Positions 2,092 to 35,875 of a DNA stretch of 40,027 nucleotides are shown here, one piece after another (positions within the stretch are counted from its first letter, which is position 1; each line of letters opens with the position of its first letter). Origin of the DNA: a virus. The translations under genes and the position numbers were made by a program. The stretch spans positions 1 through 40,027 of IMG/VR virus record IMGVR_UViG_3300049024_000119. One strand, 5' to 3'. The notes under the pieces were generated by a model. That model did no database searches, had not been told where the DNA came from, and worked only from the letters and a program-made list of their open reading frames with translations.

Positions 2092-2493
2092 TTAGGCGAA
2101 GAGGAGCGGATGATCCGCATAGGGGTCTGGGGTAGGGCGTTTGGGGCGTGCCTTTCGGAGTTCATTGATGTCCACCACGTTGGCGGGCAGCGGTGCGGCG
2201 GGCGGCTGGGCTTTGGGCAGGTACTGCGGGCAGCGCTCGGCGATGGCGGACAGCAGCGCGGTCTTGTCCCCGGTGGTGATGCGCAGGAGGTAGTTCACCA
2301 CGGCCTGGCGTGACACACGCAGCCGGCCATGCTCGCCCGTGCCACCCGCGTCGTAGCGTTTGGCCTCCAGGTTGCCCTTGCGGATCATCCTGCGCACAGA
2401 GCGCTCTCTCACGTCCAGGACATACTCCACCTGATTGGTCGTCAGGTCGTCATTGCCTGGGATGGAGCAGAGCCGTGTGATGTCAGGATCCAT
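2092..2493 (-). CDS. Helix-turn-helix (excisionase/MerR-type) DNA-binding protein
   Basis: The 133-residue product contains LTTNQVEYVLDVRERSVRRM followed by IRKGNLEAKRYDAGGTGEHG and RLRVSRQAVVNYLLR, about residues 17-70. That is the winged-helix pattern of excisionase/HTH_17 proteins: recognition helix, wing, then a helix after an R-V-S-R turn. The C-terminal 50 residues are Pro/Lys rich and probably disordered. Such proteins act as excisionases or as transcriptional regulators of phage early genes. Which applies here is not decided by the sequence. The stop is followed by CCAACAAAGC, a sequence also found after the stop at 3252. Confidence 0.72.
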   Translation of the reverse strand: MDPDITRLCSIPGNDDLTTNQVEYVLDVRERSVRRMIRKGNLEAKRYDAGGTGEHGRLRVSRQAVVNYLLRITTGDKTALLSAIAERCPQYLPKAQPPAAPLPANVVDINELRKARPKRPTPDPYADHPLLFA

Positions 2494-3233: not shown

Positions 3234-3251
3234 CGGCGGCGGCTTTGTTGG

Positions 3252-3455
3252 TTAGGCCACTAGATGCGGGACGACGATCCCCATGCGTTCCAGCTTTTCG
3301 CGGATGGCGATGCGAACCAGTTTTGACCGGTCACTATCCAGGTTGGTGATCGCGGTATTGATCGGGGCTTCCCAGGATTTGGGGATGGGGACGGAGACCA
3401 CTGCGCTCTTGCGGCGCGGGCAGGCTCCCCTGCGTTGTGTTTTTTCTTGGGCCAT
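3252..3455 (-). CDS. Ribbon-helix-helix DNA-binding protein (leftward)
   Basis: The 67-residue product has a basic N-terminal tail (TQRRGACPRRKSA). The ribbon strand VVSVPIPKSW is followed by two helices, APINTAITNLDS and DRSKLVRIAIREKLERMGI. This is the CopG/Arc-type RHH fold, in which a dimer inserts the strand pair into the major groove. The C-terminal signature R-x-A-I-x-E-K-L-x-x-M-G-I is shared with the divergently transcribed protein at 3561, so the two are paralogues. As first gene of the leftward unit, next to repeated operator-like sites, it is a good candidate for an autoregulating early repressor. Direct evidence of repression is absent. Confidence 0.78.
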   Translation of the reverse strand: MAQEKTQRRGACPRRKSAVVSVPIPKSWEAPINTAITNLDSDRSKLVRIAIREKLERMGIVVPHLVA

Positions 3456-3560
3456 GTGAATGAGTATTACTGAGTATTACACCCGTCAACACCCAGACTT
3501 GATTTTTTTTGCGGGTGTAATACACCTGGACAGCTCCCCCAAGCCCGATCCCCCCTTTGC
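3456..3560. promoter_or_regulatory. Divergent control region between the two RHH genes
   Basis: This 105-bp AT-richer spacer separates the leftward and rightward units. TGAGTATTAC is duplicated exactly in tandem (3461-3470, 3471-3480). GTATTACACCC at 3474-3484 is repeated in inverted orientation as GGGTGTAATAC at 3513-3523, with about 28 bp including a T8 run between the arms. RHH dimers usually bind short tandem or inverted sites, so these are likely operators. On the minus strand TTGACG (3489-3484) is followed by the TAATACT repeats, a plausible promoter for the leftward unit. On the plus strand TGTAAT (3516-3521) is a possible -10. Confidence 0.72.
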
Positions 3561-3887
3561 ATGCCCGGCAACCGTGACCCAGACCAGACTATAATGACCG
3601 TCAGCCTCTCTAAGGGGCTGCTGAAGATTGTGGATACCCGGCGAAAAGTGAACCGCGCTCAGTTCATTCGTGAGGCGATTGCGGAGAAGTTAGCTTCGAT
3701 GGGCATTGAGGTCCCTGGTGAAGTCATGGCCGTGCCTGATCGCGCCAAGCAAGGGCAGGATGACTTAGCACCCCCGGCCAATGGCGATGCGGGAAGCCAT
3801 AGCGTAAATGACAAGGATGCCAAGGCTCCTAAACTCCGCACCAGCATCAATTACGACAAGCCCAAGAGAACCAAGAAAAGGGCATAA
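3561..3887 (+). CDS. Ribbon-helix-helix DNA-binding protein (rightward)
   Basis: The 108-residue product begins MPGNRDPDQTIMTVSLSKGL. The RHH core is about residues 10-50: strand IMTVSLSKG, helix LLKIVDTRRKV, helix NRAQFIREAIAEKLASMGIEVP. A Lys/Asn/Asp-rich tail of about 55 residues ending KPKRTKKRA is basic and probably disordered. It could start instead at the internal ATG at 3594. It is a paralogue of the leftward RHH protein with the same M-G-I-x-V-P ending, and both flank a repeat-rich operator region. Opposing regulators of an early/late or lysis/lysogeny decision are a reasonable inference. Confidence 0.78.
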   Translation: MPGNRDPDQTIMTVSLSKGLLKIVDTRRKVNRAQFIREAIAEKLASMGIEVPGEVMAVPDRAKQGQDDLAPPANGDAGSHSVNDKDAKAPKLRTSINYDKPKRTKKRA

Positions 3888-4478: not shown

Positions 4479-4520
4479 GCCATGCACAGGGCAGGCAGGA
4501 TGCTTGCACCACCTTCCAAG

Positions 4521-4546
4521 GCCAGCCTTCACGGGCTGGCTTTTTT
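4521..4546 (+). terminator. Rho-independent terminator
   Basis: GCCAGCC-TTCACG-GGCTGGC forms a perfect 7-bp stem followed by T6. It closes the unit that began with the RHH gene at 3561 and isolates the downstream lysis and late genes, which must therefore have their own promoter. The 56-bp repeat element begins just after the T-tract. Confidence 0.88.
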
Positions 4547-4547
4547 G

Positions 4548-4603
4548 TGTCCATTGTGGCCGGTCCGGACCGGTGACGTTGTTGGTTAGGTGTGGTGAAG
4601 TGG
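4548..4603 (+). repeat. 56-bp palindromic element, copy 1 (candidate late promoter)
   Basis: It begins TGTCCATTGTGG, contains the perfect palindrome CCGGTCCGGACCGG at 4560-4573, and continues TGACG..TTGGTTAG..GTGGTGA. Copy 2 (11597) differs at 2 positions and copy 3 (21582) at about 6. This copy sits directly behind a terminator and ahead of the lysis/terminase block, where a new promoter is needed. Unlike copies 2 and 3, no start codon follows closely; the next gene begins at 4730. Confidence 0.85.
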
Positions 4604-4641
4604 TGGTGCTTCGTGAGAGGCGTTTGATGGTCATGGGTCGG

Positions 4642-4672
4642 CCTGCCGTCGCTGCGCAAGAGCGGCGGCAGG
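4642..4672 (+). other. Long leader hairpin before the 4730 gene
   Basis: CCTGCCGTCGCT pairs with AGCGGCGGCAGG (11 Watson-Crick pairs and one mismatch) around a 7-base loop. It is followed by TTTCCC, not a long T-tract, so it is a weak terminator at best. It could be an attenuator or 5'-leader structure between repeat copy 1 and the first gene of the block. Confidence 0.6.
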
Positions 4673-4729
4673 TTTCCCGGGGCCGCGATGCCTTGAGCGC
4701 TGTTCTCCACTCAACTCCACCACCCCATC

Positions 4730-5143
4730 ATGAAAGGCATCCTCGTGAAAAAGTTCGGCACCTTCCTCGGCCTCTGCGCCTTCATCGGCATCATCATCGG
4801 CTACACGTTCGTTCCTGCTTCCTGCCAGATCAGTCCTGAGCAGATGAAGCGGCTCCAGGCCATCACCGTCCCTGCCACCCAGCTCGGCCTCGCGGTCGCG
4901 CAGTCCCAGGGCTACATCACCCCTGGTGACCGCATCACCATCACCCAGGGGGTGGCCATCGTCACCTCGGACAAAACCCCGGAAGCCAAGCTCTTTGAGC
5001 TGACGGAGCTGGGCCTCAAGGAGGCGCTGAACAAAGGCCTCATCACCAACGGCAGTGTCATCACCCTGGACACCCCGGAGAAGGCCACCATCGCCCCGCC
5101 TGATCCGCTCCCCGCGTCTCCGCTGCTCCCGCAGCCTCAATAA
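4730..5143 (+). CDS. Exported or membrane-anchored protein of the lysis region
   Basis: The 137-residue product has a basic start (MKGILVKKFG), a hydrophobic stretch at 10-27 (TFLGLCAFIGIIIGYTFV) and then PASCQ, a weak lipobox-like site. Either an uncleaved anchor or a lipoprotein signal is possible. The mature part (residues 32-118) has a regular strand/helix pattern, with two similar phrases GYITPGDRITI and GLITNGSVITL that suggest a duplicated small motif. The tail is Pro rich. It is the first gene after repeat copy 1 and lies before the endolysin, so a lysis accessory role is plausible but unproven. Confidence 0.65.
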   Translation: MKGILVKKFGTFLGLCAFIGIIIGYTFVPASCQISPEQMKRLQAITVPATQLGLAVAQSQGYITPGDRITITQGVAIVTSDKTPEAKLFELTELGLKEALNKGLITNGSVITLDTPEKATIAPPDPLPASPLLPQPQ

Positions 5144-5403
5144 ATCCCCACGCCGACGATACTGGCAAAGCGGGCCTTGTGCCCGGCTGAGTGGCAGCGG
5201 CGGACTGCCTCGGGGGAATGCCACCTCATTTCAGGCATGACGCCTCGGAGAGACGAGCCCTCAAGATGGGTCTGGATGGTTTTTATTCCTTCAAGGCGGA
5301 CCCCTTTAAATGCCTACCAAGGAGTCGCGAATGCCCGCTGCGAGCAGGCATGACAGCCGGAGAGACGGCAGCCATCGCAAACCACCGTCAACGGCTCCCT
5401 CTT
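5144..5403 (+). other. Hairpin-rich 260-bp leader upstream of the endolysin
   Basis: No convincing gene was found. Two matching modules occur: CAGGCATGAC (5232-5241), then CTCG-GAGAGA-CGAG (5244-5257); and CAGGCATGAC (5345-5354), then GCCG-GAGAGA-CGGC (5356-5369). Both hairpins present the same GAGAGA loop on different stems, a covariation-like pattern. Another hairpin CGGGC-CTTGT-GCCCG lies near 5170. The region ends in a short decamer array (5374-5394). It may be a structured RNA leader or a remnant of inserted DNA. Confidence 0.5.
5374..5394 (+). repeat. Decamer array A
   Basis: Short member of the 10-bp-periodic family: ATCGCAAACC then ACCGTCAACGG. It is followed by CTCCCTCTT and the endolysin ATG at 5404, so it forms the immediate leader of that gene. 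Confidence 0.7.
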
Positions 5404-6021
5404 ATGAAACTCTGCATCGAAGTCGGTCACGGCATGTCTAACAAACGGTCAGGTGTCTATGACACCGGGGCGGTCTATGGCCCTCATGAGGAGGCATCCA
5501 TTGTCCTGCTCTGGGGACATGAGCTGCGCAAGGCCTGCGAGTATCTGGGCATGCCCTGCTTCATGACCCGCGTGCATCGCAATGATCCCACGCCGCTGGG
5601 CACACGCGTTGCACGGGCTGAGCAGGAAGGTTGCACGCACCTCATCAGCCTGCATGTCAATGATGCGGATGCGCCTGGGGCCAATGGTTTCGAGACCCTT
5701 TACCGTACCCCTCACAGCGAAGTGTTTGCCGAAAGTCTGCATCATCTGATGAGCACCCTGAACCTGCGTGATCGCGGGGTGAAGCTGCGCCCGGATCTGG
5801 CGGTGCTCACTTCCAAGTCCATGCCCTCGGCGCTCCTGGAGCTGGGCTTCATCCGCTCGGCCTCTGACATGCGCGTGGTCACAGATCCGACCATCATGCA
5901 GCGCCACTGCGCCAAGATCGCCACCTACCTGGCCGGTCTCAGTGCTCCTGCCAGGTCTGCGCCTGAGCCTGCCGCTCATGGCTGCACCTGCCCCTGCACC
6001 TGTGGCAAGCGGCCTAACTAA
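5404..6021 (+). CDS. Endolysin: N-acetylmuramoyl-L-alanine amidase (Amidase_3)
   Basis: The 205-residue product starts MKLCIEVGHGMSNKRSGVYD, with the first zinc ligand H9 on the first strand as in the family. The other expected residues are present: E29/E30 in GPHEEAS, H84 in LISLHVND and catalytic E146 in SALLELGFI. It cleaves the amide bond between MurNAc and L-Ala in peptidoglycan, releasing phage at the end of the lytic cycle. The frame is open upstream, but this ATG follows array A and places the first strand correctly. After the catalytic domain comes an unusual tail, HGCTCPCTCGKRPN, with four closely spaced cysteines. No signal peptide is present, so a holin is needed. Confidence 0.9.
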   Translation: MKLCIEVGHGMSNKRSGVYDTGAVYGPHEEASIVLLWGHELRKACEYLGMPCFMTRVHRNDPTPLGTRVARAEQEGCTHLISLHVNDADAPGANGFETLYRTPHSEVFAESLHHLMSTLNLRDRGVKLRPDLAVLTSKSMPSALLELGFIRSASDMRVVTDPTIMQRHCAKIATYLAGLSAPARSAPEPAAHGCTCPCTCGKRPN

Positions 6022-6035
6022 ACACTCGTCAACGG
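6019..6035 (+). repeat. Decamer array B (short)
   Basis: AACACTCGTCAACGG overlaps the end of the endolysin gene and is followed by CTCCCTCTCCCCC and the next ATG at 6049. Its right end, GTCAACGGCTCCCTC, is identical to that of array A. Confidence 0.6.
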
Positions 6036-6048
6036 CTCCCTCTCCCCC

Positions 6049-9598: not shown

Positions 9599-11221
9599 AT
9601 GCCCAAACAAACACCACTCCAAAAGGACGCCATCGAACAGATTGCCGAGAAGGCACGCGCCCAGAAGGCAGCTCTTTCGCGCCAGGCTGAGGAGCTGATG
9701 CAGCTGGTGAGCGCAGCAGCAGATCGTTCCAGCAATCCTCTGCACAAGTGTGATCTCGAAACACTGCGTCAGCGCTGTGAGCAGCATGTGCTGGGAGTGA
9801 ATGTGAACGGCTGGGTGAATCCGTTCCCCAGCACCAACCCCAAGAGCCAGCTGCTGCAGTATCAGCATGAGTACTGGCATGATGACTCCAGGTTTAAGGC
9901 CTGGCTCGCATCACGCCAGGTCGGCAAGGATTTCAGCAGCGAGGGCGAGAGCGCCGAGGACTGCATCATGAATCCATCCCATCGGTGGATGATCGCCGCG
10001 CCATCGGAGCGGCAGAGCCTGGACTCGCTGGAGCAGCAGAAGATGTGGGCAGAGGCCTTTGGTCTGATTGTGGATGACTACCAGGAGGAGCGGGAAGGCG
10101 GGCAGAGTGAGACCTTGCTGAAGGCTGCCGAGATCAAGTACCACAACAAGTCATCCGCCGTGGCTGTGCCTGGCAGGCCTGACACCGTGCGTGGCAAGAG
10201 CGCCAGCATCCTGCTCACAGAGTTTGATTTCTTTGAGCAGCCCCAGCTCACCTGGCGTGCCTTGCTGCCATCCATCACCAACTCTCTGCGCGGCGGTGAA
10301 AAGAAGATCCGCACGGTGTCCACACCGAACGGCAAGGGCCGCATGATGGACAAGTTCTTCAATGAGGAGCCCAAGGGCAAGATGGTCTGGAGCAAGCACC
10401 TCACCACCATCTATCATGCGGTGCTGATGGGTCTGCCGGTGGACATTGAGGAAATCCGCTCCGCCATGGATGATGAGGAGGGCTGGGCACAGGAGTTCGA
10501 GTGTCAGTTCCTGGACGGCTCCAACGTCCTGCTGCCTTATGAGGTCATCCAGCTCGCGGAGTCCATGGATGCTACCGAGAGCTGGTCTCTGGATGACGCG
10601 GGCGGCTCGCATCCCATCTATGTAGGTATTGACTTCGGACGCACGAATGACCCGACCGTCTGCTGGACTCTGCAAAAGGTGGGTGACATCCTGTGGACAC
10701 GCGAGGTGCTGGTGCTGAAGGGGGTATCCACCCCAGATCAAGAGCGCATCCTGCATCAGCGCATCAGCCGCGCACGCCGCGTGTGCTTCGACTACACAGG
10801 CCCCGGCATCGGACTCGGAGACTATCTGGTGAAAGAGCATAAGGAGTGGGACCCCTCGGCGCACAAGCTGGGCAAGATCCAGCTCTGCACCTTCACCGTG
10901 GATTTTAAGCGCGCCATCTTTCCGCGTCTCCGCCGTCACTTTGAGGCCCCCACCCGGCTGCGCATCCCCATCAGCCGCGAGATCCGTGAGGACCTGCATC
11001 AGATGCAGCAGATCATCACGAATGGCACCTACAACTACGCATCACCCAGGACCAAGAGCGGCCACAGTGACCGCTGCACGGCCCTTGCGCTGGCGCTGCA
11101 TGCGGTGGAGGATGCCAAGGCAGACTTCGCATGGTCACCGATCCCGCGCCGGACAGACAGCACGGCGGCGGGGGGTGTCGGCGGTGCCTTGAAACGGGTG
11201 AAAAAGGCCCTCGGGCTGTGA
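9599..11221 (+). CDS. Large terminase subunit, Mu gp28-like
   Basis: The 540-residue product starts at the ATG at 9599, four bases after the small-subunit stop. The ATPase part has an adenine-binding region near LLQYQHEYW (85-93), a Walker A-like SRQVGKD (105-111), and a Walker B-like ILLTEFD (204-210). A coupling motif STPNGKG follows (241-247). The RNase H-like nuclease part carries YVGIDFGRTNDP (D345), RVCFDYTGPGIG (D398) and HSDRCTALALAL (D491). It is the motor and nuclease that packages phage DNA into the prohead. The length fits the gp28 class. Confidence 0.92.
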   Translation: MPKQTPLQKDAIEQIAEKARAQKAALSRQAEELMQLVSAAADRSSNPLHKCDLETLRQRCEQHVLGVNVNGWVNPFPSTNPKSQLLQYQHEYWHDDSRFKAWLASRQVGKDFSSEGESAEDCIMNPSHRWMIAAPSERQSLDSLEQQKMWAEAFGLIVDDYQEEREGGQSETLLKAAEIKYHNKSSAVAVPGRPDTVRGKSASILLTEFDFFEQPQLTWRALLPSITNSLRGGEKKIRTVSTPNGKGRMMDKFFNEEPKGKMVWSKHLTTIYHAVLMGLPVDIEEIRSAMDDEEGWAQEFECQFLDGSNVLLPYEVIQLAESMDATESWSLDDAGGSHPIYVGIDFGRTNDPTVCWTLQKVGDILWTREVLVLKGVSTPDQERILHQRISRARRVCFDYTGPGIGLGDYLVKEHKEWDPSAHKLGKIQLCTFTVDFKRAIFPRLRRHFEAPTRLRIPISREIREDLHQMQQIITNGTYNYASPRTKSGHSDRCTALALALHAVEDAKADFAWSPIPRRTDSTAAGGVGGALKRVKKALGL

Positions 11222-11596
11222 TTTCCCGGAAACGCGATTTAAGGCCGGTCTGAGGGGGCGGGATGGCTCGGAGTAGCTCTCACCCCCCTATCCCCACCCC
11301 AAAAACCGTGCAAATGGCGTGCAAAACGGCGGCGGACCGGGCCCGGGGTGCCGAAATCGGGTCTGGGGGCCGGAGTGGTCCGGGATCGGGATCGGTGGCC
11401 AGGGTGTCGTGGCCTGCCATTTTTGCATGGCAAATGCATGGTTCGCCAAAGACCCTGGAGACGTTTGTACACACCCCCCGCTACCCTGACCCTCATTGAC
11501 CGCCTTGACCGTGTCTCATCGCTCCCGCTGCTGACAAACCACCGCCAACAACGGCAAACCATCGCCAGCCATCGCCAACGGTTCCCCTCTTTTCTC
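11222..11596. other. Long non-coding interval between terminase and portal genes
   Basis: No convincing gene was found. The interval holds C-runs, the palindrome CCGGGCCCGG near 11340, a CGGGATCGGGATCGG repeat near 11385, and overlapping inverted repeats around 11417-11442 built from TGCCAT, ATGGCA and GCAAATGC. It ends with decamer array C. In Mu-like genomes these two genes are usually adjacent, so the gap is notable. It could contain a terminator for the terminase unit, a protein-binding site or an inserted fragment. Confidence 0.5.
11531..11581 (+). repeat. Decamer array C
   Basis: Five 10-bp units in register: CTGACAAACC, ACCGCCAACA, ACGGCAAACC, ATCGCCAGCC, ATCGCCAACG. The array is followed by GTTCCCCTC and then directly by the 56-bp element (copy 2), so the two repeat families are stacked here. 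Confidence 0.82.
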
Positions 11597-11652
11597 TGTC
11601 CATTGTGGCCGGTCCGGACCGGTGACGATGTTGGTTAGGCGTGGTGAAGTGG
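11597..11652 (+). repeat. 56-bp palindromic element, copy 2 (candidate late promoter)
   Basis: It is nearly identical to copy 1 (2 differences), with the perfect CCGGTCCGGACCGG palindrome at 11609-11622. It ends in GTGGTGAAGTGG, 6 bases before the TTG proposed as the portal start. This spacing closely matches copy 3 and its ATG, which suggests that the element supplies the promoter and possibly the ribosome-binding region of the first gene of the block. Confidence 0.88.
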
Positions 11653-11658
11653 GGCGTC

Positions 11659-13185
11659 TTGAAAACCGGCGCATCCATCTTCTCACCTGCCCACCTTCGC
11701 TACCTCAAAGCGGTGCGTGGCACCATGCTGCGCAACCTCTCTGGCGAGTATCTGGCCACGGCGCTGGACGGCTTTGAGTCGGGCAATCTCCGCGCCGCTG
11801 CCCAGCTCTGGCAGAGCATGTGCCAGCGGGATGATGTGATCAGCAGCGTGAAGGCCAAGCGCGAGAAAACGGTGAGCCGTCGTGACTGGCAGGTGCTCAC
11901 CAGTGATAACAGTGGCGAGGCCAAACGCCAGGCCAAGGTGCTGGAGGAGTTCTGGAACAATGTGGATGTGGTGAACGCCTTTGATCGCAACCAGCGCGGC
12001 GGCTTTGCCCTGCTGGTCCGGCAGATGATGGAGGCGGTGTCCTTTAAGTACGCCGTGCATCATCTGGTGTGGAAGCCCTCGGCCTCGCAGCTCGGCTGCA
12101 CCTTTGAGTATGTGCCGCTGCATTTCTTTGAGAACCTCACCGGCTCCCTGCGCTTCTGCCCCACGGGCATGGATTATGAGGGCGTGGAGATGAAGCCTGA
12201 AGAGTGGCTGGTGACCTGTGGTGACGGCCTCATGATCGCCGGAAGCATCGGCTACTTCTGCAAGCGCAATGCCCTGGCAGACTGGATGGCCTTCAGTGAC
12301 AAGTTTGGCATGCCGGGCATCCTGGCACGCACCTCGCAGGGTAAGGACACGCCGGGCGGCATTGCCATGGCCGAGGCGGCGGAAAGCTTTGGCCAGGACT
12401 GGACGGCCATTCTGTTTGGCGATGACGGCAGCGGCAAGATCGAGCTGATCACGCCGAGCGGTGGTGCCAGCACGTTGCCCATGCCTGGGCTGATTGAACG
12501 TGTGGACCGCAGGCTGGCTGCGCTGTGGCGCGGCGCGGATCTCAGCAGCATGAGCAGCAGCAAGGGCGAGGGCACCGGAGCCAGCGTGCAGAGCGGCGAG
12601 ACAGATATCCTGGACCAGGATGACGCGCTCATGATCAGCGAGCGGCTCAATGAGATTGATGAGCAGGTGCTGCGCTGGTGGTTCGGCCCCAAGGTCAAGG
12701 TGCGCGCCTACATCCGCCTCATCGCTCCGCAGAGTGAAGATCAGAAGCTGCTGCTCACAGCGGTGGAAACCCTGGTCAAGCTCGGCGCTCCCGTGGCCGT
12801 CAGTGATGTGCTGGAGCGTTTCGGCTTCCCGACCCCCAAGGCAGGTGAGCCGCTGCTGGGTGAGGTCCAGAAGCAAGACGCGGAGACGCGGAGGCTGGCA
12901 GACGCGGAGACGCAGCCCCAGCTCAATGCAGCCATGGATGAAGATCAGTTCCTTCTCGCTGCCGGTCGTCTGCTGGCCCAGGCCTCGCGTGAGGACCGCC
13001 AGAACCTCGTGGATGACCTCCGCAGCATCCTGAGCGCGCCAGAGTCCACCCAGCTCAATGCGCTGGCATCCTTCATTGAGCGCCTGCCTGAAAACATCAG
13101 CCAGGACACTGCCCAGGTCCGTGCCTGGGAAGTCCTTTTCGCCACCGCCATCGCCAATGGCTGGGCATCCGCATCACCAACCTAA
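11659..13185 (+). CDS. Portal protein, Mu gp29-like (DUF935)
   Basis: The frame can be read from GTG at 11641, but that start lies inside repeat copy 2. The TTG at 11659 has the same spacing to the element as the ATG behind copy 3, so I prefer it (508 residues). DUF935 features: MCQRDDVISSVKAKREKTVS followed by RRDWQV; RQMMEAVSFKYAVHHLVWKP; FEYVPLHFFE; and the loading-domain segment DWMAFSDKFGMPGILARTSQ with GKDTPGG. A long C-terminal helix region is usual. It forms the ring at one head vertex through which DNA passes. It is the first gene of the head block. Confidence 0.88.
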   Translation: MKTGASIFSPAHLRYLKAVRGTMLRNLSGEYLATALDGFESGNLRAAAQLWQSMCQRDDVISSVKAKREKTVSRRDWQVLTSDNSGEAKRQAKVLEEFWNNVDVVNAFDRNQRGGFALLVRQMMEAVSFKYAVHHLVWKPSASQLGCTFEYVPLHFFENLTGSLRFCPTGMDYEGVEMKPEEWLVTCGDGLMIAGSIGYFCKRNALADWMAFSDKFGMPGILARTSQGKDTPGGIAMAEAAESFGQDWTAILFGDDGSGKIELITPSGGASTLPMPGLIERVDRRLAALWRGADLSSMSSSKGEGTGASVQSGETDILDQDDALMISERLNEIDEQVLRWWFGPKVKVRAYIRLIAPQSEDQKLLLTAVETLVKLGAPVAVSDVLERFGFPTPKAGEPLLGEVQKQDAETRRLADAETQPQLNAAMDEDQFLLAAGRLLAQASREDRQNLVDDLRSILSAPESTQLNALASFIERLPENISQDTAQVRAWEVLFATAIANGWASASPT

Positions 13186-13198
13186 CCAACATCACGTC

Positions 13199-17568: not shown

Positions 17569-17580
17569 ACAGCCTTCAGT

Positions 17581-17625
17581 GAAACCACTGTAAACCACCG
17601 TCAACCATTGCCAGCAACCGCCAAC
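17581..17625 (+). repeat. Decamer array E
   Basis: Units GAAACCACTG, TAAACCACCG, TCAACCATTG, CCAGCAACCG, then CCAAC. The array is followed by TTTCCCCTCCGCC and the ATG at 17639, so it forms the leader of the DUF1320-like gene. Confidence 0.85.
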
Positions 17626-17638
17626 TTTCCCCTCCGCC

Positions 17639-18109
17639 ATGCCCTGGATCACTCCCACTCTCGAACAATGCCAGCAGCGCATCACGGGCGCGGAATGGCA
17701 GTCCCTGCATCGTGCGGCCACACTGGCCGGGCAGGATGGCGAGCAGATGGCCCAGGATGTCATCACGAACATCGTCACGCGGATCCGTGGTCGCGTGGCA
17801 GCCAGGCCGGAGAACCAGCTCGGCGCCGAGGGCACCATCCCGGATGAGCTGATGACCTGCTTCCTGGCGCTGTGGGTCTACGACTTCATCACGCGTCTGC
17901 CGAACATGCGCACGCTGCTGGATGACCGTCGCCTCGAAGCCTGGAAGACCGCTGAGAGCGAGCTGCGCCATGTGGCCGAGGGCAAGATCAAGATCGTCCA
18001 GCCCATCACCCCCGCCGCCCCCGAACTGCAGGCCACTGCAGGCACCGTGCAAGTCCTCAGCAAAACCACCCGCCGCGTCACCCGTGATGGTGTCAGCGGC
18101 CTCTTTTGA
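17639..18109 (+). CDS. Head-tail connector-type protein, Mu gp36-like (DUF1320)
   Basis: The 156-residue product (MPWITPTLEQCQQRITGAEW) has the helical DUF1320 plan: an N-terminal helix pair, EQMAQDVITNIVTRIRGRVA in place of the usual D-x-x-I-D-x-Y-L, PDELMTCFLALWVYDFITRL, then DRRLEAWKTAESELRHVAEG and KIKI. Proteins of this class form the ring below the portal. Its place after the capsid gene supports the call. The C-terminal 35 residues are Pro/Thr/Ser rich. It ends 4 bases before the next start. Confidence 0.75.
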   Translation: MPWITPTLEQCQQRITGAEWQSLHRAATLAGQDGEQMAQDVITNIVTRIRGRVAARPENQLGAEGTIPDELMTCFLALWVYDFITRLPNMRTLLDDRRLEAWKTAESELRHVAEGKIKIVQPITPAAPELQATAGTVQVLSKTTRRVTRDGVSGLF

Positions 18110-18113
18110 TTTT

Positions 18114-18681
18114 ATGCGCGAAGTGGCTGCTCTCTATGTTCGCTCAGATTCAGTTTATAAGCTGATGCCTGGGGTGGATTGTTGGGATGCTGAGAGAGAT
18201 GCGAGACAATATGATGGTCCGGCTCCTGTGGTAGCTCATCCTCCGTGCCGGCTTTGGGGCCGTCTGACACACTTCTCAAAAGCAGACCCCTCTGAACGTG
18301 AACTGGCTCATCACGCGGTGCAGCGGGCCCGGCTTTTTGGCGGCGTCGTGGAGCATCCTGCATATTCACGTTTGTGGGCCGTGATGGGGTTGCCATTGCC
18401 TGGGGAAACCAGGGATTCATGGGGGGGGGGTGAGCATTGCGCTCAATCAATTTGCATTTGGTCATCAGTGCTTGAAGCCCACATGGCTTTACATTGTTGG
18501 ATGTGCCGAACTTCCGACACTGCCTGTGGAAATGGGCAAACCCGAATACTGCATTGCACGGTCCCGGGGATCAAAGCTGCTGCATGTCACAAAAGCAAAG
18601 CGCGAACATACGCCTCCCGCCTTCGCTGCATGGTTGGTCGAAACTGCACGCCGCTGCTTCTCTTCTGACAAACAATCGTAA
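18114..18681 (+). pseudogene. Conserved phage HPPC-motif protein, split at a G10 tract
   Basis: The first frame gives MREVAALYVRSDSVYKLMPG, VDCWDAERDARQYDGPAPVV, AHPPCRLWGRLTHFSKADPS, then VVEHPAYSRLWAVMGLPLPG and DSWGGG. The rest of the family pattern, LNQFAFGHQCLKPTWLYIVG and KAKREHTPPAFAAWLVETAR, lies in the +1 frame starting in the G-tract at 18421-18430. With nine Gs the protein would be continuous (188 residues). The family is common in phages but its function is not established; HPPC recalls the P-P-C/P-P-Y loop of DNA methyltransferases, a weak hint. Codon use is more AT-rich than in its neighbours, suggesting recent acquisition. The C-terminus S-D-K-Q-S and the stop lie in array F. 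Confidence 0.8.
18421..18430 (+). repeat. G10 homopolymer tract
   Basis: Ten consecutive G residues in coding sequence, between GATTCAT and TGAGC. It is the longest mononucleotide run I saw. It is exactly where the reading frame of the HPPC-motif gene must change by +1. Confidence 0.95.
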
Positions 18682-18715
18682 ACCACCGTCAACCACCGCA
18701 AACAACTGTCAACGG
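18670..18715 (+). repeat. Decamer array F
   Basis: Units AACAATCGTA, AACCACCGTC, AACCACCGCA, AACAACTGTC, then AACGG, followed by CTCCTTCCTCCCC and the GTG start at 18729. The stop codon of the upstream gene lies inside the first unit. Confidence 0.9.
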
Positions 18716-18728
18716 CTCCTTCCTCCCC

Positions 18729-20410: not shown

Positions 20411-20695
20411 ATGAAGATCTCCGAAATCAAACGCCGCCTCGGCATCGCCTTTCACTGGCAGTGGCGCACGGGAGTACTCCTCAAGGAGTTGGTGTCTTTT
20501 TGGGAAGCTATTGAGGCTCTGCTTTTTTCTCTCGGTGGTATCGTCGCCGCTCTTCTCTTCATTCTGCTTCATCCTTTCGCTGTGCTCTGGCGATTCACCT
20601 TCGGCATGGTCTGGCTCGCGCTCTTCAGCAAGTCGGACGTGATGAGCAAACTGGAGGCAGCCATGCCTAACAAGCCCTCAGACAAACCACTGTAA
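20411..20695 (+). CDS. Small membrane protein between head and tail genes
   Basis: The 94-residue product begins MKISEIKRRLGIAFHWQWRT. It has one long or two short hydrophobic segments (about 38-75: LLFSLGGIVAALLFILLHPF, AVLWRFTFGMVWLALF) and a hydrophilic end, KLEAAMPNKPSDKPL. Its last codons and stop lie inside decamer array G and read S-D-K-P-L, parallel to the S-D-K-Q-S end of the HPPC-motif gene. Upstream there is a near-repeat ATTAGCGTCTC/ATTAGCGTCCC. Function unknown. Confidence 0.62.
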   Translation: MKISEIKRRLGIAFHWQWRTGVLLKELVSFWEAIEALLFSLGGIVAALLFILLHPFAVLWRFTFGMVWLALFSKSDVMSKLEAAMPNKPSDKPL

Positions 20696-20732
20696 ACCAC
20701 CGTCAACGGCACAGCCCTAAACCACCGCAAAC
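20683..20732 (+). repeat. Decamer array G
   Basis: CAAACCACTG, TAAACCACCG, TCAACGG, then after 8 bases TAAACCACCGCAAAC, then TTCCCCCTC and the ATG at 20742. The stop codon of the membrane protein gene lies in the array. Confidence 0.82.
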
Positions 20733-21494: not shown

Positions 21495-21520
21495 TATGAC
21501 CCTTGTGATGGGTCGGCTTG

Positions 21521-21568
21521 GCAAACAACCGTCAACCACCGTCAACCACAGCAAACAACCGTCAACGG
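21521..21568 (+). repeat. Decamer array H
   Basis: Units GCAAACAACC, GTCAACCACC, GTCAACCACA, GCAAACAACC, GTCAACGG. It lies 13 bases upstream of the 56-bp element copy 3, repeating the array-then-element arrangement seen at 11531-11652. Confidence 0.88.
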
Positions 21569-21581
21569 TATGGTGAAGGCG

Positions 21582-21637
21582 TGTCCATTGTGGCCGGTTC
21601 GGACCGGTGACGTTATTGGTTAGCCGTGGTGAGATGG
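21582..21637 (+). repeat. 56-bp palindromic element, copy 3 (candidate late promoter)
   Basis: It begins TGTCCATTGTGG; the palindrome is imperfect here (CCGGTTCGGACCGG, 21594-21607). It ends GTGGTGAGATGG, 7 bases before the ATG of the tail tube gene at 21645. About 6 differences from copy 1. It marks the start of the tail block. Confidence 0.87.
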
Positions 21638-21644
21638 GGCTGTC

Positions 21645-22598
21645 ATGAGCACACGCACCCAGATCACCAAAACTCCCGGCAAGGTCGTCTTTGATCCGAC
21701 CGGCACACCTGTCACCCTTTACTCGTCCAGCGGCATTTCATGCGACCTGCAGGAGACCATGGTGGAGCTGCCGGATGTGCGGTTCGGCGCCAGTGAGCAG
21801 ATCGTCACGGGCCGCATGGTGGAGATCAAATTCACCCCCACGCAGTTCACCGCCGCTGCCCTGGTGAAACTCTTCACGCATGGCGCGGTGCGCATGGGTG
21901 GCAGCATCGTGGGTGCCACCGACAAACTGGTGGACGTGCGCACGGTGGATGGTGTGCAGCGCCGCATTGCCTGCGCCTACATCCATCAGGAGCCTGCGGT
22001 GCGCTGCAAGACCGGCCAGACCATTCTTGGTGAGGTCGTCATCCGTGGCATCGTGGGCATCGGCGCGGACAGCTCCCTGCTCAGCACCTACTGGAGCAAG
22101 AGCAGCGTGGCCTGGAGTGATGCGGGCTGGGATCCTGATGACGAGATCACGCCCGGCTGGGAGTTCTCCTGGCCCACCGGCAGCGCCACGGCCTGGGATG
22201 ACATCGACACAGCGGACGGTGTGACCATCACGCCGAAGAGTGGCCTCACCGAGGACGTCAGCAACCGCAACGGCCTCATCAATGTGACGATCCAGAAGTA
22301 TGGCGTGGAGATCGCCGCGAAGACGCTGAACATCAGCGAGGACCTGGTACTTGCCGCGCTCTACAATGACCTGCCGCTCGGTGCCAAGAAAACCGGCCTG
22401 GGCCGTGATCTGAAGCTGAATGCCACCACCGGGGATGCCTTCATTCGCTGCTACAACGCAGTGCTGCAACCCACCAGCCTCACCTACAATGCCACTGACA
22501 CGGTGGTGGGTGATTTGAAGTGGATGACCAGTCCGCTCGTCACCAGTGGCGTGAAGGGTCCGCATCTTCTGGTGACCACCACCGACCCGGATGCATGA
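21645..22598 (+). CDS. Major tail tube protein (siphovirus type)
   Basis: The 317-residue product (MSTRTQITKTPGKVVFDPTG) is beta-rich and fits the tail-tube position: first gene of the tail block, followed by two small chaperone-position genes. Typical features include an N-terminal strand pair with TPVTLYSSSGISCDLQETMV, a loop, VRFGASEQIVTGRMVEIKFT, RRIACAYIHQEPAVRCKTGQ and NVTIQKYGVEIAAKTLNISE. No sheath gene is seen, so the tail is probably long and non-contractile. The ATG overlaps nothing and follows the candidate late promoter directly. Confidence 0.75.
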   Translation: MSTRTQITKTPGKVVFDPTGTPVTLYSSSGISCDLQETMVELPDVRFGASEQIVTGRMVEIKFTPTQFTAAALVKLFTHGAVRMGGSIVGATDKLVDVRTVDGVQRRIACAYIHQEPAVRCKTGQTILGEVVIRGIVGIGADSSLLSTYWSKSSVAWSDAGWDPDDEITPGWEFSWPTGSATAWDDIDTADGVTITPKSGLTEDVSNRNGLINVTIQKYGVEIAAKTLNISEDLVLAALYNDLPLGAKKTGLGRDLKLNATTGDAFIRCYNAVLQPTSLTYNATDTVVGDLKWMTSPLVTSGVKGPHLLVTTTDPDA

Positions 22599-29218: not shown

Positions 29219-32200
29219 ATGTTCAGCATCCTCTCACAAACCACTAAAGCCTCGGGTCCGGGCGCTCCATGCGCACCTCGTCGGCACTGCCTGATGTTGG
29301 GGCTCGCTCTAGTGGCACTGGTTACCATGCCCACGCGCAGCTGGGCGGCGAACATCATCCATGAGTTCTATGTGCCGCTGCCAGAATCTCAGGTGAAATC
29401 CGCCCTGGTGTCCATTGAGCCAGCCTCGGGCATCGTGGGAAACACAATCGAGTCCGTCATCTCCATCGTTGCCACCGGAGCTGGCTCCATCATTCACTAT
29501 GACCAGTGGGAAGACGGCTACGAGGTGGACCTGAACAACCCTGTGCAGCCCTCCACCCAGATCTGGGGGGATGGGAACAATGCCAACGGCATCCCCCCCG
29601 GCTATGCGAACGATCCTGCCACCCTGACCTCCGGTTCCGTGATCGTGCTGCGCAACCAGATCCCCCTGCCGCGCAATCCAGCGAACCACTTTTACGATGG
29701 CCGCGACCGCTTTGGCGGCACGAAGGCCCTCGTCGTCTCCCGCGCCAGCTGGGCCACCACGCCGGGGACGGTGCTTTGCGGCTCGAATGAAGTGCCCGCC
29801 ACCATGGACTACGGCACTCAGTACATCGCCCCCGTGGGGGATGATGTCAGCGCCAGCTCCATGTTTGAGTTCGTGGGCCTGTTTGTGATGGCTCGGGATG
29901 ACGCCACCTCTGTCACCGTGGATGCGGACGGTCCCGGCGCGGGCGCCTCCACCACCCTCACCCTGAACCGCGGCGAGTCCTATCTCCTGAACGGCGGCAT
30001 CAAGAAAGGCGCCACCGTGGCTGCCACCAAGCCAGTGCAGGCGCAGCTGGTGACCGGGGACATCGGTGCCCGCTATGAGAGCCGCCGTTTCACCCTGTAT
30101 CCTCGGGACCAGTGGAGTGACGTGACTTACTCGCCCGTGGGCACTGCGGCAAACGGCCACCAGGCCTATGCCTTCATTTACAACCCGAATGCCGCATCCC
30201 TAACCATCAATGTGACAACTGCCGTTGGCGCCGCGAGCTTTTCCGTCGCCGCGAACGGTGTGACCCAGTATCAGATTCCGCAGAACTCGGGAGCCAGGTT
30301 TGTCAGCTCAAATGGAGCGGACTTCTTCGGTGTGGTGGCAGTGGGCGCCAACCCGAGCTCCAACAATGTGCATGACTGGGGATTCTCCATGGTGCCCTCG
30401 GACAACCTCACCACCGAGGCGGTGGTGGGCTGGGGACCTGGAAGCGAGAACCTCACTCAAAACGGCAGCCCGGTCTGGGTCACCCCCACCTCCGCCACGC
30501 GTGTGTATGTGGACTACAATGGTGACAAGGCAGGCTCGCTGACCGATCCAAAGGGCAACAAGTACGACGCGCACCTGGACATCAGCACCATGGAGTCACG
30601 CCGGGTCAGTGATCCTGACAAAGACCAGACGGCCATGCGCCTGTACACGCTGGATGGTGTGACCATCACGGCCGCCTGGGGTCAGGATCCTGCCGTCGCC
30701 GGTCCTGCCCTGCCCTACCTGGACTGCGGCACCACGGTGCTGCCCTTTCCAGTGCCGACACTCATCAAGTCCTTCACCATCGCCATCGATGCAGGAAGCC
30801 CCGGCCTGACCATTGGCGACACCGTCGAATACCGCATCGATGTGGACAACAAAGGCCTGCTGCCTCTTGGCAACCTGCTCGTGCTCGACCCGCTGAACGC
30901 CTCCCTGACCTACGTCGCAGGCAGCACAAAGCGTGATGGCACCACCATCCCAGACGGCAGCACAGGCACGCTCTTCCCTTTGGATGAAAGCGGCTACACG
31001 ATCCCGATCATCCTGCGCGGGGGCACGACCACTTTCACTTACCGTTGCACGGTCAACGCCGCAGGTTCGATTGCCAACACCGTGAGCAACTCGAACTACA
31101 ATCTCGTGTCCACGGCCAACGTGGTGGTTCCGCCGCCGGCAGGCGCCACTCCTTGCGGCGCGCAGTTCACCAACAACACAGGCACCACGCAGTCATCCTA
31201 CACAGCGGGTGCCCTCATCTATGCCACGATGACAGATCCTGATGCCAACAACACAGCATCTGTGGAAAGCATCACCGTGGTGGTGCGCAATACAACGAAT
31301 GGCGATGCGGAGTTCGTCACATTGGTCGAGACCACCGCGACCAGCGGCATCTTCCGCAACACCACCGGCCTAACCACTTCCACGACCACGGGCTCCTCGC
31401 AGATGGACGGAACGCTGCTCGTCGCGCCTGGGAACAGCCTTTCCTTCATCTACACCGATCCGGAGTTCAATGAGACCTGCACTGGCAGTGCGGTGATCGC
31501 CGTGCCGACTCAGAACAAGTTCCTCTATCTCAGTGATCCGGGCCAGGCGCTGGACCGCGTGGATCCCGCGGCAACTGCCGACAACAGCACCTCCAGCAGC
31601 ACGGCGCAGACACCTGGTGCGGCCACCATTGCCGTCGATGCCACCTCCACTGGCAGTTCTGTCAATTCCACCAACGTAACCTTCACTCATATCACAGGCA
31701 GCGGGAGCAACCGCCTCATGCTCGTGGGCATCTCCTATGAGGATGACAACAACCCGGGACTCACCATCACCAATGTGACTTATGCGGGACAACCGCTCAC
31801 TTTTGTCGGACGGCAGGCCTCCCCACAGGAGGTGGCCTGCGAAGTCTGGCGCCTCATCAATCCTCCAAGCGGATCGGCCAGCATCGTCGTCACAGCCAGT
31901 GGTCTCGATGGCACCTCAGACAGCATTTTCGCGGGTGCGATCACGTACACGGGAGTGCATCAGACGGCACCGCTCGGGACCATGACTTTCGGCGCTGGGA
32001 CTGGCACCACTGGATCCGCCACAGTCTCCTCGGCTGCCAATGAGCTCGTCTTTGGCCTGCTGGCGCTGGATGACGGGCGCACCGCCACCAACACCGCAGG
32101 CCAGACGGAGCGCTGGAACGGCCGCACGGAGACAGGCGATGATGGCGTGCGCGCTGCTGCAGCGACGAAGGTCGGAACGGCCTCCACCACCTTGTCATGG

Positions 32201-35200
32201 ACTCTGGTGAATGATGCGTGGTCTGCCTGCGCCGTGCCCATCAAGCCGGCACCTTCGCCAGTAACGGCCACCTTTACCCAGGCACCCACCTTTGCCTCCA
32301 CCTTCACCATGCCAGTCGGGGCCACACCGGTGGTGACAGCTTACTACAATGTCACCAGCGGCACCATGCCTGCCTCGCCAGCCATCACCGCCACGCTGAA
32401 GCGCGGTGCCAGCATCGTCGCCACCAGCACCTCGACGACAGCATCGGCCGCCACCGGCGCAGGTTTCTTCACCTTCAACTTTGGCGCGTTGGCTGGCACC
32501 GTGACCTATGCCGCCGGCGAGACCTTCACCTTGGACATCACCACGTCGCAGGCCGGTGTGACCTACGCCATTCAATACGACAGCGCTGCCGCACCTTCCA
32601 AGATCACGCTGCCAACCACGACAGTCATCGATGTCAATTCCCTCGGCGTGTATGATGCGCCCTACCCTGCCGGCAACCTCATCACAGGCCTGACCAGCGG
32701 CACGACCGTCTACATCCGCAGCACGGCCAGCGATCCCTTCGGCCATGCAGACATCACCAGCATGGGACTGGCCATCACGGGCCCTGGCGGCAGCGGCAAT
32801 GTCAGCACCACGCTGAATGGGGCGAATGTGGTCAACACCACGACGGGCACGAAGACCTATGAGTATGCCTGGGCTGTGGGCGCCACGACCGGCACCTACA
32901 ACATCGCCGTGACGGCGAACGAAGGCACGGAAGGCATCACCGCCACACGCGCCACCACGGTGAACGTGACCATGCTTGACCTCGGAACACCGAGCACCAC
33001 GGAGTTCACCACCGGTGTGAACGGCCCGGGCACACCGACTTACTCAGGCGGCGAGACCGTCTGCGTGCGTGTCACGGATTTGGATCAAAACACCAATGCC
33101 ACCGTGGCTGAGACGGTGACTGTCACCATCACCACCGCGAGCGGTGACAGTGAGCTGGTCACTCTCACGGAGACCGGCGTGAACACCGGCATCTTCACCG
33201 GTTCCATCCCCTCCAGCACCACCCTGGGTGCCGGAACGAACAGCGGCACCCTGCGCGCTGTCCTCGGCGAGCTGCTCACAGTGACTTATGTGGATCCGAC
33301 CGACGCCCTGGACACGAGCAACGACACCGCCACGATCCCAAATGTGGCGCCAGCAGTCTCCGTGAAGAAGACACTGGTCATCCCAGCGGACGGCATCGCC
33401 GTGATCGGTGAGGCTTTGCAATACACCGTGCAGGTCGCCAACACCGGCAACACAACGCTCAGCACCATCGCGCTGACAGACACCTTCCCGGCGGCAAACC
33501 TGGCCTTTGTCTCGGCCAGCCTCACACCTAGCTCCACAGGCAGCGGAACCGTGAGCTGGACGAATGTCGGGCCGCTCACTTCCGGCCAGAGCATCACCCT
33601 CACGCTAAACTTCGCCGCCCTCACCGCAGGTGCGACCGTCACCAACACGGCCAGTGCCAACGCAGGCGGTAGTGTGACCGGCAGCAGTTTCGCCAATGTG
33701 ACCCTCACACGTCCGGCGCACATCGTGACCAAGACATTGATCAGCCCGACTCCAGGCCCGGCCAACATCGGAGACAACGTGGTCTTCCGCATTTCGGTGC
33801 AGAACACCGGCACCACGGCCATCACCACTCTGCCGCTCGAGGACACTTTCTCCGGCGCGGACTTCAGCTTTGTCTCTGCCACGACCACTCCTGACGCGAC
33901 CGGCAATGGCGCCCTGCTCTGGAACGACATCACTGGCTCAGGCAGCCTCGCCGCAGGCGCCACGGCCACCGCGATCGATGTGACCCTCCGGGCCCGGGGA
34001 GCCGCCGCCCCTGCGGTCAACAACGCCTCCGCCAGCTACAGCGTGGATGTGAATGGCGACTCCGTGCCGACGGCAAGCAGCAGCGCCACCATCACACTCC
34101 TCGCGGCGAAGATCACCGGTCGTGTCTACATTGACCCGGATCAGAGCGGCAGCTTCAACGCCGGTGACAGCGCTTTCAGCGGTGTGACGGTCAGCCTCTA
34201 CTCAGATCCGAATGCAGACGGCAACCCGGCGGATGGCACGCTCGCGGCCATCGCCACCACCGGCACGGACGGTCTCTACGAGTTCCCGAACCTCGCCACG
34301 GGAACCTACGTTGTCGTTGAGTCCCAACCGGCTGGCTACTCCAGCAGCGGAGACACCCAGGGTGCCAATGACAACCGCATCGCGCTCAACGTGAGCACGC
34401 TCACAACCTTCGCGGATAACAACTTCTTTGACTATCTCACACCCGCGGTGAGCTACGCCAGCATCTCCGGCAAGGTCTGGAATGATGCGAACGCCAGCGC
34501 CACGGTGACCGCCGGTGAAGTTGGCATCGAGAACGTGCAGGTCGACCTCATCGAAGATGCCAACAACAACGGCGTCGCTGATCCGGGCGAGGCGGTGGTG
34601 AGCTCCGCGCTCACGGCAGCCGATGGCACCTATGCCTTTGCAGGACTCAGCGCCGGAAACTATGTCGTGGTCGAGCGCGACCTCTTCGGCTGGTACTCCA
34701 CGGCAGACGCTGCCACGCCTAACAATAATATGACTCCCGTGGCTGCAGCTGCTGGCAGCACCACCACAGGACGTGATTTCCTGGACGTGCAGACAGGCAC
34801 CGTGGGTGGCAAGGTCTACCATGACGTGGACGGCAACGGCAGCTTTGGCGGCAGTGACACTGCTCTCGCAAACATTGATGTGATCATCACCGACACCTTT
34901 GGCGTGCCCCAGACGGTGGCGACCAATGCCACAGGTGACTGGACCGCGTCCGTGCCTCCGGGCACCACCAGCGTGAACGTGGACCAGGCAGATCCTCAGT
35001 TCATCGCTGTCTTCACCACAGGCTACCAGCAGACCGCCGGTACGGATCCTAGCAATGTCACCGCAGTCAGCAGTGTGAACACACCTGCAGGTGATGACGG
35101 CTTCCGTCGCCTTGGCAGCGTCACGGGAACGGTGCTCGCAGACACCAACAACGATGACGCAGGTGATGTGGGCATCAGTGGAGTCACGCTCACTCTCAAG

Positions 35201-35875
35201 GACAGCCTCGGCAACGACATCGACAGCAATCCTGGTCTCGCAGGCGTTCAGCCCACCACGACGACCACCAACCCCAGCGGTGTGTATGCTTTCGCCGGCC
35301 TGGTGCACGGCACCTATCAGGTCGTCGAAACTGACCCCTCAGGCTACTTCAGCATCACGACGAACACGGTCACCCCAGTCAACGTCGTCGCCGGATCCAC
35401 GACCAGCGGCATCAACTTCGTCGACGAGCAGGCCGGCAGCATCACGGGCTTTGTCCGTGCCGACACTGACAACAATGACTCAGGTGATGTGGGCATCGAA
35501 AGTGTCACGCTCACCCTCAAGGACAGCAGCGGCAATGATATCGACAGCAATGCGGGTCTCGCGGGCACACAACCCACCACCGCGACCACCAGCGGCAGCG
35601 GCGCCTACAGCTTCACCAATCTTCTTCCGGGAACCTATCAGGTCGTTGAGACCGACCTTGCGAGCTACTTCAGCGTCACGGCCAACACCGTGTCCTCCGT
35701 GGTGGTGAATGCCGGGCTTGTCACCAGCGGCATCAACTTCGTCGACGAGCAGGCAGGCAGCATCACGGGCTTTGTCCGTGCCGACACCGACAACTCCAAG
35801 ACAGCAGTGGCAATGACATCGATAGTGATCTGGGCACACCTGGAGTGCAGGCGACCACTACGACGACGAACGTGA
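29219..35875 (+). CDS. Giant secreted surface protein, N-terminal part (IgGFc-like, DUF11, SdrD_B)
   Basis: This frame encodes 2218 residues. A signal peptide spans about 1-43 (CLMLGLALVALVTMPTRSWA). Residues 44-510 resemble the IgGFc-binding-type N-terminal domain (ATKPVQAQLVTGDIGARYES). A DUF11-like domain follows (about 515-620), then a beta-domain with a diverged second copy near 1260 (AQFTNNTG, TEFTTGVNG), and a lectin-like part from about 800. Two more DUF11-like domains begin at 1381 (VKKTLVIP) and 1503 (VTKTLISP), and SdrD_B-like domains from 1633. From 1966 there are 107-residue repeats with Ca-binding-type acidic loops (ADTNNDDAGD). The frame ends in an out-of-frame tail (about 25 residues) because of a 43-bp deletion in the third repeat. 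It is probably an adhesin or sheath protein. Confidence 0.85.
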   Translation: MFSILSQTTKASGPGAPCAPRRHCLMLGLALVALVTMPTRSWAANIIHEFYVPLPESQVKSALVSIEPASGIVGNTIESVISIVATGAGSIIHYDQWEDGYEVDLNNPVQPSTQIWGDGNNANGIPPGYANDPATLTSGSVIVLRNQIPLPRNPANHFYDGRDRFGGTKALVVSRASWATTPGTVLCGSNEVPATMDYGTQYIAPVGDDVSASSMFEFVGLFVMARDDATSVTVDADGPGAGASTTLTLNRGESYLLNGGIKKGATVAATKPVQAQLVTGDIGARYESRRFTLYPRDQWSDVTYSPVGTAANGHQAYAFIYNPNAASLTINVTTAVGAASFSVAANGVTQYQIPQNSGARFVSSNGADFFGVVAVGANPSSNNVHDWGFSMVPSDNLTTEAVVGWGPGSENLTQNGSPVWVTPTSATRVYVDYNGDKAGSLTDPKGNKYDAHLDISTMESRRVSDPDKDQTAMRLYTLDGVTITAAWGQDPAVAGPALPYLDCGTTVLPFPVPTLIKSFTIAIDAGSPGLTIGDTVEYRIDVDNKGLLPLGNLLVLDPLNASLTYVAGSTKRDGTTIPDGSTGTLFPLDESGYTIPIILRGGTTTFTYRCTVNAAGSIANTVSNSNYNLVSTANVVVPPPAGATPCGAQFTNNTGTTQSSYTAGALIYATMTDPDANNTASVESITVVVRNTTNGDAEFVTLVETTATSGIFRNTTGLTTSTTTGSSQMDGTLLVAPGNSLSFIYTDPEFNETCTGSAVIAVPTQNKFLYLSDPGQALDRVDPAATADNSTSSSTAQTPGAATIAVDATSTGSSVNSTNVTFTHITGSGSNRLMLVGISYEDDNNPGLTITNVTYAGQPLTFVGRQASPQEVACEVWRLINPPSGSASIVVTASGLDGTSDSIFAGAITYTGVHQTAPLGTMTFGAGTGTTGSATVSSAANELVFGLLALDDGRTATNTAGQTERWNGRTETGDDGVRAAAATKVGTASTTLSWTLVNDAWSACAVPIKPAPSPVTATFTQAPTFASTFTMPVGATPVVTAYYNVTSGTMPASPAITATLKRGASIVATSTSTTASAATGAGFFTFNFGALAGTVTYAAGETFTLDITTSQAGVTYAIQYDSAAAPSKITLPTTTVIDVNSLGVYDAPYPAGNLITGLTSGTTVYIRSTASDPFGHADITSMGLAITGPGGSGNVSTTLNGANVVNTTTGTKTYEYAWAVGATTGTYNIAVTANEGTEGITATRATTVNVTMLDLGTPSTTEFTTGVNGPGTPTYSGGETVCVRVTDLDQNTNATVAETVTVTITTASGDSELVTLTETGVNTGIFTGSIPSSTTLGAGTNSGTLRAVLGELLTVTYVDPTDALDTSNDTATIPNVAPAVSVKKTLVIPADGIAVIGEALQYTVQVANTGNTTLSTIALTDTFPAANLAFVSASLTPSSTGSGTVSWTNVGPLTSGQSITLTLNFAALTAGATVTNTASANAGGSVTGSSFANVTLTRPAHIVTKTLISPTPGPANIGDNVVFRISVQNTGTTAITTLPLEDTFSGADFSFVSATTTPDATGNGALLWNDITGSGSLAAGATATAIDVTLRARGAAAPAVNNASASYSVDVNGDSVPTASSSATITLLAAKITGRVYIDPDQSGSFNAGDSAFSGVTVSLYSDPNADGNPADGTLAAIATTGTDGLYEFPNLATGTYVVVESQPAGYSSSGDTQGANDNRIALNVSTLTTFADNNFFDYLTPAVSYASISGKVWNDANASATVTAGEVGIENVQVDLIEDANNNGVADPGEAVVSSALTAADGTYAFAGLSAGNYVVVERDLFGWYSTADAATPNNNMTPVAAAAGSTTTGRDFLDVQTGTVGGKVYHDVDGNGSFGGSDTALANIDVIITDTFGVPQTVATNATGDWTASVPPGTTSVNVDQADPQFIAVFTTGYQQTAGTDPSNVTAVSSVNTPAGDDGFRRLGSVTGTVLADTNNDDAGDVGISGVTLTLKDSLGNDIDSNPGLAGVQPTTTTTNPSGVYAFAGLVHGTYQVVETDPSGYFSITTNTVTPVNVVAGSTTSGINFVDEQAGSITGFVRADTDNNDSGDVGIESVTLTLKDSSGNDIDSNAGLAGTQPTTATTSGSGAYSFTNLLPGTYQVVETDLASYFSVTANTVSSVVVNAGLVTSGINFVDEQAGSITGFVRADTDNSKTAVAMTSIVIWAHLECRRPLRRRT

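Follow-up and report, generated by a model that had tools for sequence, protein, structure and literature searches.

How a Mu-like phage of the Verrucomicrobia might switch on its lysis, head and tail genes together is the question raised by the locus described here, in which nearly the same sequence stands at the head of three late gene blocks. Late regulation in Verrucomicrobia phages appears unstudied in the literature found, subscription literature lying outside that search. The window, by which we mean the whole stretch of DNA analysed (40,027 nucleotides), is an incomplete record, or phage fragment, in which Gam (PF07352), a Mu-type portal protein (Portal_Mu, PF06074), a Mu-like protease (PF10123), a terminase and a head protein were recognised, the three Pfam families marking it as a transposable Mu-like phage. 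Early genes run leftwards on the minus strand from about position 3455, and late genes occupy the plus strand.

A repeated element at the head of three late gene blocks

We confirmed three near-identical 56-nt elements in the window, all on the plus strand, at 4548-4603 (copy 1), 11597-11652 (copy 2) and 21582-21637 (copy 3). Copy 1 and copy 2 are alike at all but 2 of the 56 positions, and copy 3 differs from either at 6, in keeping with the common orientation and the 2 to 6 differences given in a preliminary description of this DNA. The element is confined to these copies within the window. Its 31-nt core, TGTCCATTGTGGCCGGTYCGGACCGGTGACG, has three matches in the record, and the reversed control pattern none; allowing 2 mismatches, a scan for the palindrome, which is imperfect in copy 3, returned 3 against 0.26 expected, a count reached in 0 of 100 shuffles; and the 3' stretch GTGGTGARRTGG occurs exactly three times, always inside a copy, against 0.05 expected. 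A sequence earlier taken as a feature of the element, TTGTTGGTTAG, proved not to be unique, exact copies also lying at 2085 and 3245, just after the stop codons of minus-strand genes. As a separate observation, TAACCAACA, which in the reverse sense is the TTGTTGGTTAG of the late element, follows the stop codons of three genes (2085-2095, 3245-3255 and 13182-13192).

The copies do head lysis/fibre/terminase, head and tail blocks, as had been proposed, the tail block being assigned by position only. Copy 1 comes right after an intrinsic terminator and starts about 180 nt before block 1, which includes a small membrane-type protein (4730-5143, plus strand), an N-acetylmuramoyl-L-alanine amidase, or endolysin (5404-6021, plus strand), a fibre-like protein and, as its last gene, the terminase large subunit (9623-11221, plus strand). 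Copies 2 and 3 each start about 60 nt before a gene, respectively the portal gene that opens block 2 (11659-13185, plus strand) and the putative tail gene, without Pfam or PHROGs hit, that opens block 3 at ATG 21645 (21645-22598, plus strand). From element start to first gene the distances are -183, -63 and -64 for copies 1, 2 and 3. The portal start had been placed at GTG 11641; TTG 11659 is more likely, because the homologues in the two closest relatives (below) also begin TTGAAA. The suggestion that the 3' half of the element carries translation signals fails at two of the copies, the gene after copy 1 starting 127 nt further on and the GTGGTGA of copy 3 being out of frame with the start codon.

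Other repeats are present in the window. Spacers rich in C and A, built of units of about 10 nt (AAACCACCGTC and so on), directly precede many late gene starts (5366-5401, 6007-6042, 11536-11588, 17574-17634, 18662-18722, 20666-20732 and 21515-21575), and other relatives have different short units (AACCGAG, CTTACAC, CTCAACT) in such places. Past the likely right end of the phage, at about 28.9-29.2 kb, a large protein with 321-bp repeats spans 29219-38120, a region that is probably host DNA; one step of its array measures 278 nt, 43 nt short, and shifts the frame near 35.8 kb. No Rfam families were found in the window.

Relatives with matched elements of their own

Brevifollis gellanilyticus and other verrucomicrobial genomes have relatives of the terminase, and a terminase alignment search of IMG/VR gave 57 loci, while a query with the single portal gave no matches there. 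Two of the relatives are similar enough to be compared gene by gene. One is a prophage in genome G035 (IMG/VR 2861701969), which represents one and the same phage with IMG/VR locus L028; its portal is 61% identical to that of the window. The other is IMG/VR locus L048, likewise a fragment, with a portal 74% identical. In G035 an AAA_22/TniB (MuB-like) gene adjoins a transposase-like gene without Pfam hit.

Each of these phages carries a set of its own. The G035 element, GCGGTAAAGGCGGSTAAGGCGGGGTG, has just three matches in the whole 6.7 Mb genome, all on the plus strand, and no matches in 67 other genomes of the family. One copy separates a terminator from the lysis block, one stands ahead of the portal gene, and the third heads the counterpart of window gene 20742, one gene earlier than copy 3 of the window; they are at or near L022 10435, L022 15425 and L023 3376. 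The L048 element is a third kind of sequence, bipartite in form (CCCC-N10-ATYSGGTCRGATG), and ATYSGGTCRGATG with at most one mismatch is found in L048 only at its three block heads. Distances to the first genes are -186, -60 and -59 in G035 and, from motif coordinates, about -180, -62 and -63 in L048. Matches between copies are far above shuffles in the window and in G035; in L048 copy 2 does not match copies 1 and 3 significantly in a simple ungapped comparison, and the motif that they share was read from those same copies. Between phages the elements are unrelated, with 5-18 of 45 positions alike, no -10 hexamer is common to all three, and the L048 copies show no conservation beyond the dyad on its downstream side. 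A check proposed beforehand, whether related prophages have the element before the same three genes, came out differently for place and for sequence: equivalent block heads are occupied in G035 and L048, and window-type sequence is found only in Brevifollis.

In that genus two loci keep a diverged window-type element before the lysis gene. One, the remnant L007, has terminator, element and lysis gene in the order of the window, with an element 85% identical to the window's and a next gene product only about 46% identical; in the other, a contig (L004), the element has diverged further, with the same internal spacing and the palindrome lost. The palindrome, which the preliminary description treated as the key feature, is degraded to CCGGTCCAGTCCGG in L007 and is absent from the G035 element as well; it is not what is conserved in the element. 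Exact and relaxed scans of IMG/VR found the window element in no other phage, and among 387 Verrucomicrobiales genomes, a set that leaves out the window's own host, there was one copy, in a Brevifollis prophage remnant, and one chance-level match. An element scattered mostly in host DNA, the outcome named beforehand as adverse to a phage function, was looked for in these genomes and not seen, and we reject a host interspersed repeat.

The pattern is present in three independent phage lineages only, and weak searches of more distant relatives detected no matched set. An automated search for block-head repeats in the 57 IMG/VR loci missed the window's own set, where crude gene calls covered the element, and since this positive control failed its negatives carry little weight; a scan upstream of portal genes recovered the window and G035 and missed L048. 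An otherwise dissimilar IMG/VR contig, L111, matches the G035 late element over 21 nt (L111 5733-5753). Two related Mu-like prophages in genome G047 (C1 6053001-6093000 and 7312001-7352000) have a palindrome, TGCAAGGNCCTTGCA, before the portal gene, with another like it some 17 kb downstream.

The elements as probable late promoters

Places, strand and spacing that stay fixed, combined with a matched sequence that differs from phage to phage, are the trace expected of a promoter set whose recognition factor changes. We infer both that the elements are promoters and that a phage protein recognises them: with a probability of roughly 0.7, they are the late promoters of this Mu-like verrucomicrobial phage, co-activated by a phage specificity factor as Mu late promoters are by C. 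It speaks for this reading that no sigma-70-like promoter (-35/-10, 9 of 12 matches) was found near 4548-4730, 11597-11659 or 21582-21645. The preliminary description had likewise proposed late promoters, and this part stands, carried by the matched block-head sets and by a conserved hairpin at the lysis block (below), whereas the palindrome as key and the translation signals of the 3' half have been given up. During lytic growth the phage would make its own specificity factor, which would turn on the three promoters together. The 5' part of the element (about 26-32 nt) would be the phage-specific recognition site, with transcription starting just downstream of it, near the GTGGTGARRTGG stretch, so that leaders of about 20-25 nt would precede the portal and tail genes, and a structured one of about 130 nt the lysis gene; factor and sites would change together between phages. 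More tentatively, and with odds that we place well below even, the late regulon may have been re-addressed as a unit, a factor outside the Mor/C family (perhaps an excisionase-like winged-HTH protein) and its three promoters being replaced together while position, strand, spacing and the structured lysis-leader RNA were kept.

Some features sit less easily with the promoter reading. The late promoters of Mu itself are not picked out as repeats by the test applied here, and near-identical copies of 56 bp exceed what an activator site usually needs. A phage-coded sigma-like factor or polymerase reading the elements directly would account for contiguous conservation over 26-40 nt, for the lack of a -10 shared between phages and for the bipartite form of the L048 motif. 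Neither protein was recognised among the scanned early genes of the window and G035, a search in which a small factor can be missed and the window is a fragment; we regard this alternative as unlikely, if the most serious of those considered.

A terminator-like hairpin and a predicted leader RNA at the lysis block

A terminator-like hairpin (4518-4543, plus strand), which would end the transcript of the upstream regulator, lies just before copy 1, and G035, L048 and Brevifollis L007 have equivalents ahead of their own copy 1. With a terminator in this place, the lysis block must be served by a promoter at that point. The interval from copy 1 to the first lysis-block gene holds a predicted leader hairpin (4632-4684, plus strand) whose structure is conserved in five loci, namely the window, G035, L048 and the two Brevifollis loci, being strong in all five (z of -6.2, -3.3, -3.0, -2.6 and -5.0). 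The stems differ in sequence, with two-sided changes in 11 of 20 consensus pairs; the product of the gene that follows is about 46% identical in Brevifollis and 38-41% identical in G035 and L048. A model of the hairpin found no further members at E < 0.1 among 62 loci, and nothing at copies 2 and 3. The conservation of this predicted structure downstream of copy 1 suggests that an RNA begins at or near copy 1, upstream of the hairpin. As to its role, control of lysis timing would be our guess.

The same arrangement bears on whether the elements might act in RNA, as processive antitermination sites of the nut or put kind at the block heads. As RNA the palindrome can fold into a short stem, kept as CCGG/CCGG in Brevifollis L007, and the L048 variants keep CATC/GATG with G-U pairs. 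However, copy 1 is just downstream of its terminator, where it would come too late for readthrough, the G035 element lacks any self-complementary stem, and no upstream promoter that would need such a site was seen, all of which makes antitermination improbable.

Early regulators and the candidate activator

No activator of the Mor/C family (PF08765) was detected in the window and L048, both fragments, or in G035; genome G047 has one sub-threshold match, outside its prophages. Only two early genes have a detectable G035 homologue, Gam and an excisionase-like winged-HTH protein of the early operon (2092-2493, minus strand). All three phages have kept the latter, at 36-39% identity, and its structure model, of moderate quality (pLDDT 73.5), weakly matches excisionase, BldC and MerR-type folds; on these grounds it is, weakly, the best candidate for the late specificity factor.

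Two RHH-like proteins, both with weak family scores, are encoded by the first gene of the early operon (3252-3455, minus strand) and by a divergent gene (3561-3887, plus strand) that is probably an immunity-type regulator. Between them are three GTATTAC/GTAATAC sites (3464-3523), the only ones in the window and a likely RHH operator; in place of this pair G035 has an HTH/S24 pair, while L048 has RHH. With their sites in the shared upstream region and an HTH/S24 pair in G035, the RHH proteins are more likely an immunity switch, and we consider them unlikely late activators. They could instead silence the late blocks in the lysogen, the elements being operators of an RHH or S24-type repressor, and it fits that the kind of regulator pair differs between window/L048 and G035 as the elements do. 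Yet the likely RHH operator, the GTATTAC sites, is unlike the late element, and we hold this reading to be as improbable as antitermination. Least credible of all are recombination linkers that play no part in regulation and whose likeness gene conversion maintains: location at module borders and near-identity within a phage would suit them, but linkers should be common to related phages, and here such phages differ in sequence where positions and distances agree, which is unlike the trace of shared linkers or host repeats.

Syntenic phages with the same promoter positions and different sequences give a clean route to the cognate factor, as the early gene that changes with the sites, and make a natural series in which to study how one regulator and its scattered sites evolve in step. 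For the Verrucomicrobia, a phylum in which genetic tools are scarce, the elements would also be a source of late promoters specific to a phage.

Comparison with known systems

Several late promoters of P2 and P4 share one dyad site for a phage-coded activator, Ogr or Delta. The window set resembles these in having several late promoters with one site and differs in the site itself: TGT-N12-ACA has 5 matches in the window, against a chance mean of 8.4, and none in the elements, so that a P2-type site was set aside. In the Pseudomonas Mu-like phages PaMx73 and H70 six promoters have been predicted (PMC4378225), at conserved genome positions of transposable phages as here, but by general software and not as a repeated matched set; a related phage, Frizzy, has no such three-copy set.

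About ten related phages (window 11309-11324; G035 15315; L048 11658; G047a 15320; L037 2659; L043 11618; L046 11513) have a second conserved motif outside genes, in the interval from terminase to portal, made of paired TTGCA/TGCAA with a spacing of about 8-11 bp. It is near the contig middle, at 0.50-0.53 of the contig in four of them. The central strong gyrase site of Mu (17879) shares its interval with a late promoter, before gene I at 18056 (PMC10052514).

In Mu the C protein switches on the lys, I and P late promoters (PMC4461284). Unlike Mu, the window has no detected Mor/C-family gene and no mom promoter was seen; its element is long and nearly identical between copies, whereas the Mu late promoters are indistinguishable from chance in the same test; and its head-block element precedes the portal gene, not the protease gene. 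The likeness is in the arrangement: as with Plys, PI and PP (and Pmom) of Mu, dispersed sites open the lysis, head and tail blocks of a transposable phage, one that shares with Mu its type of portal, protease and Gam.
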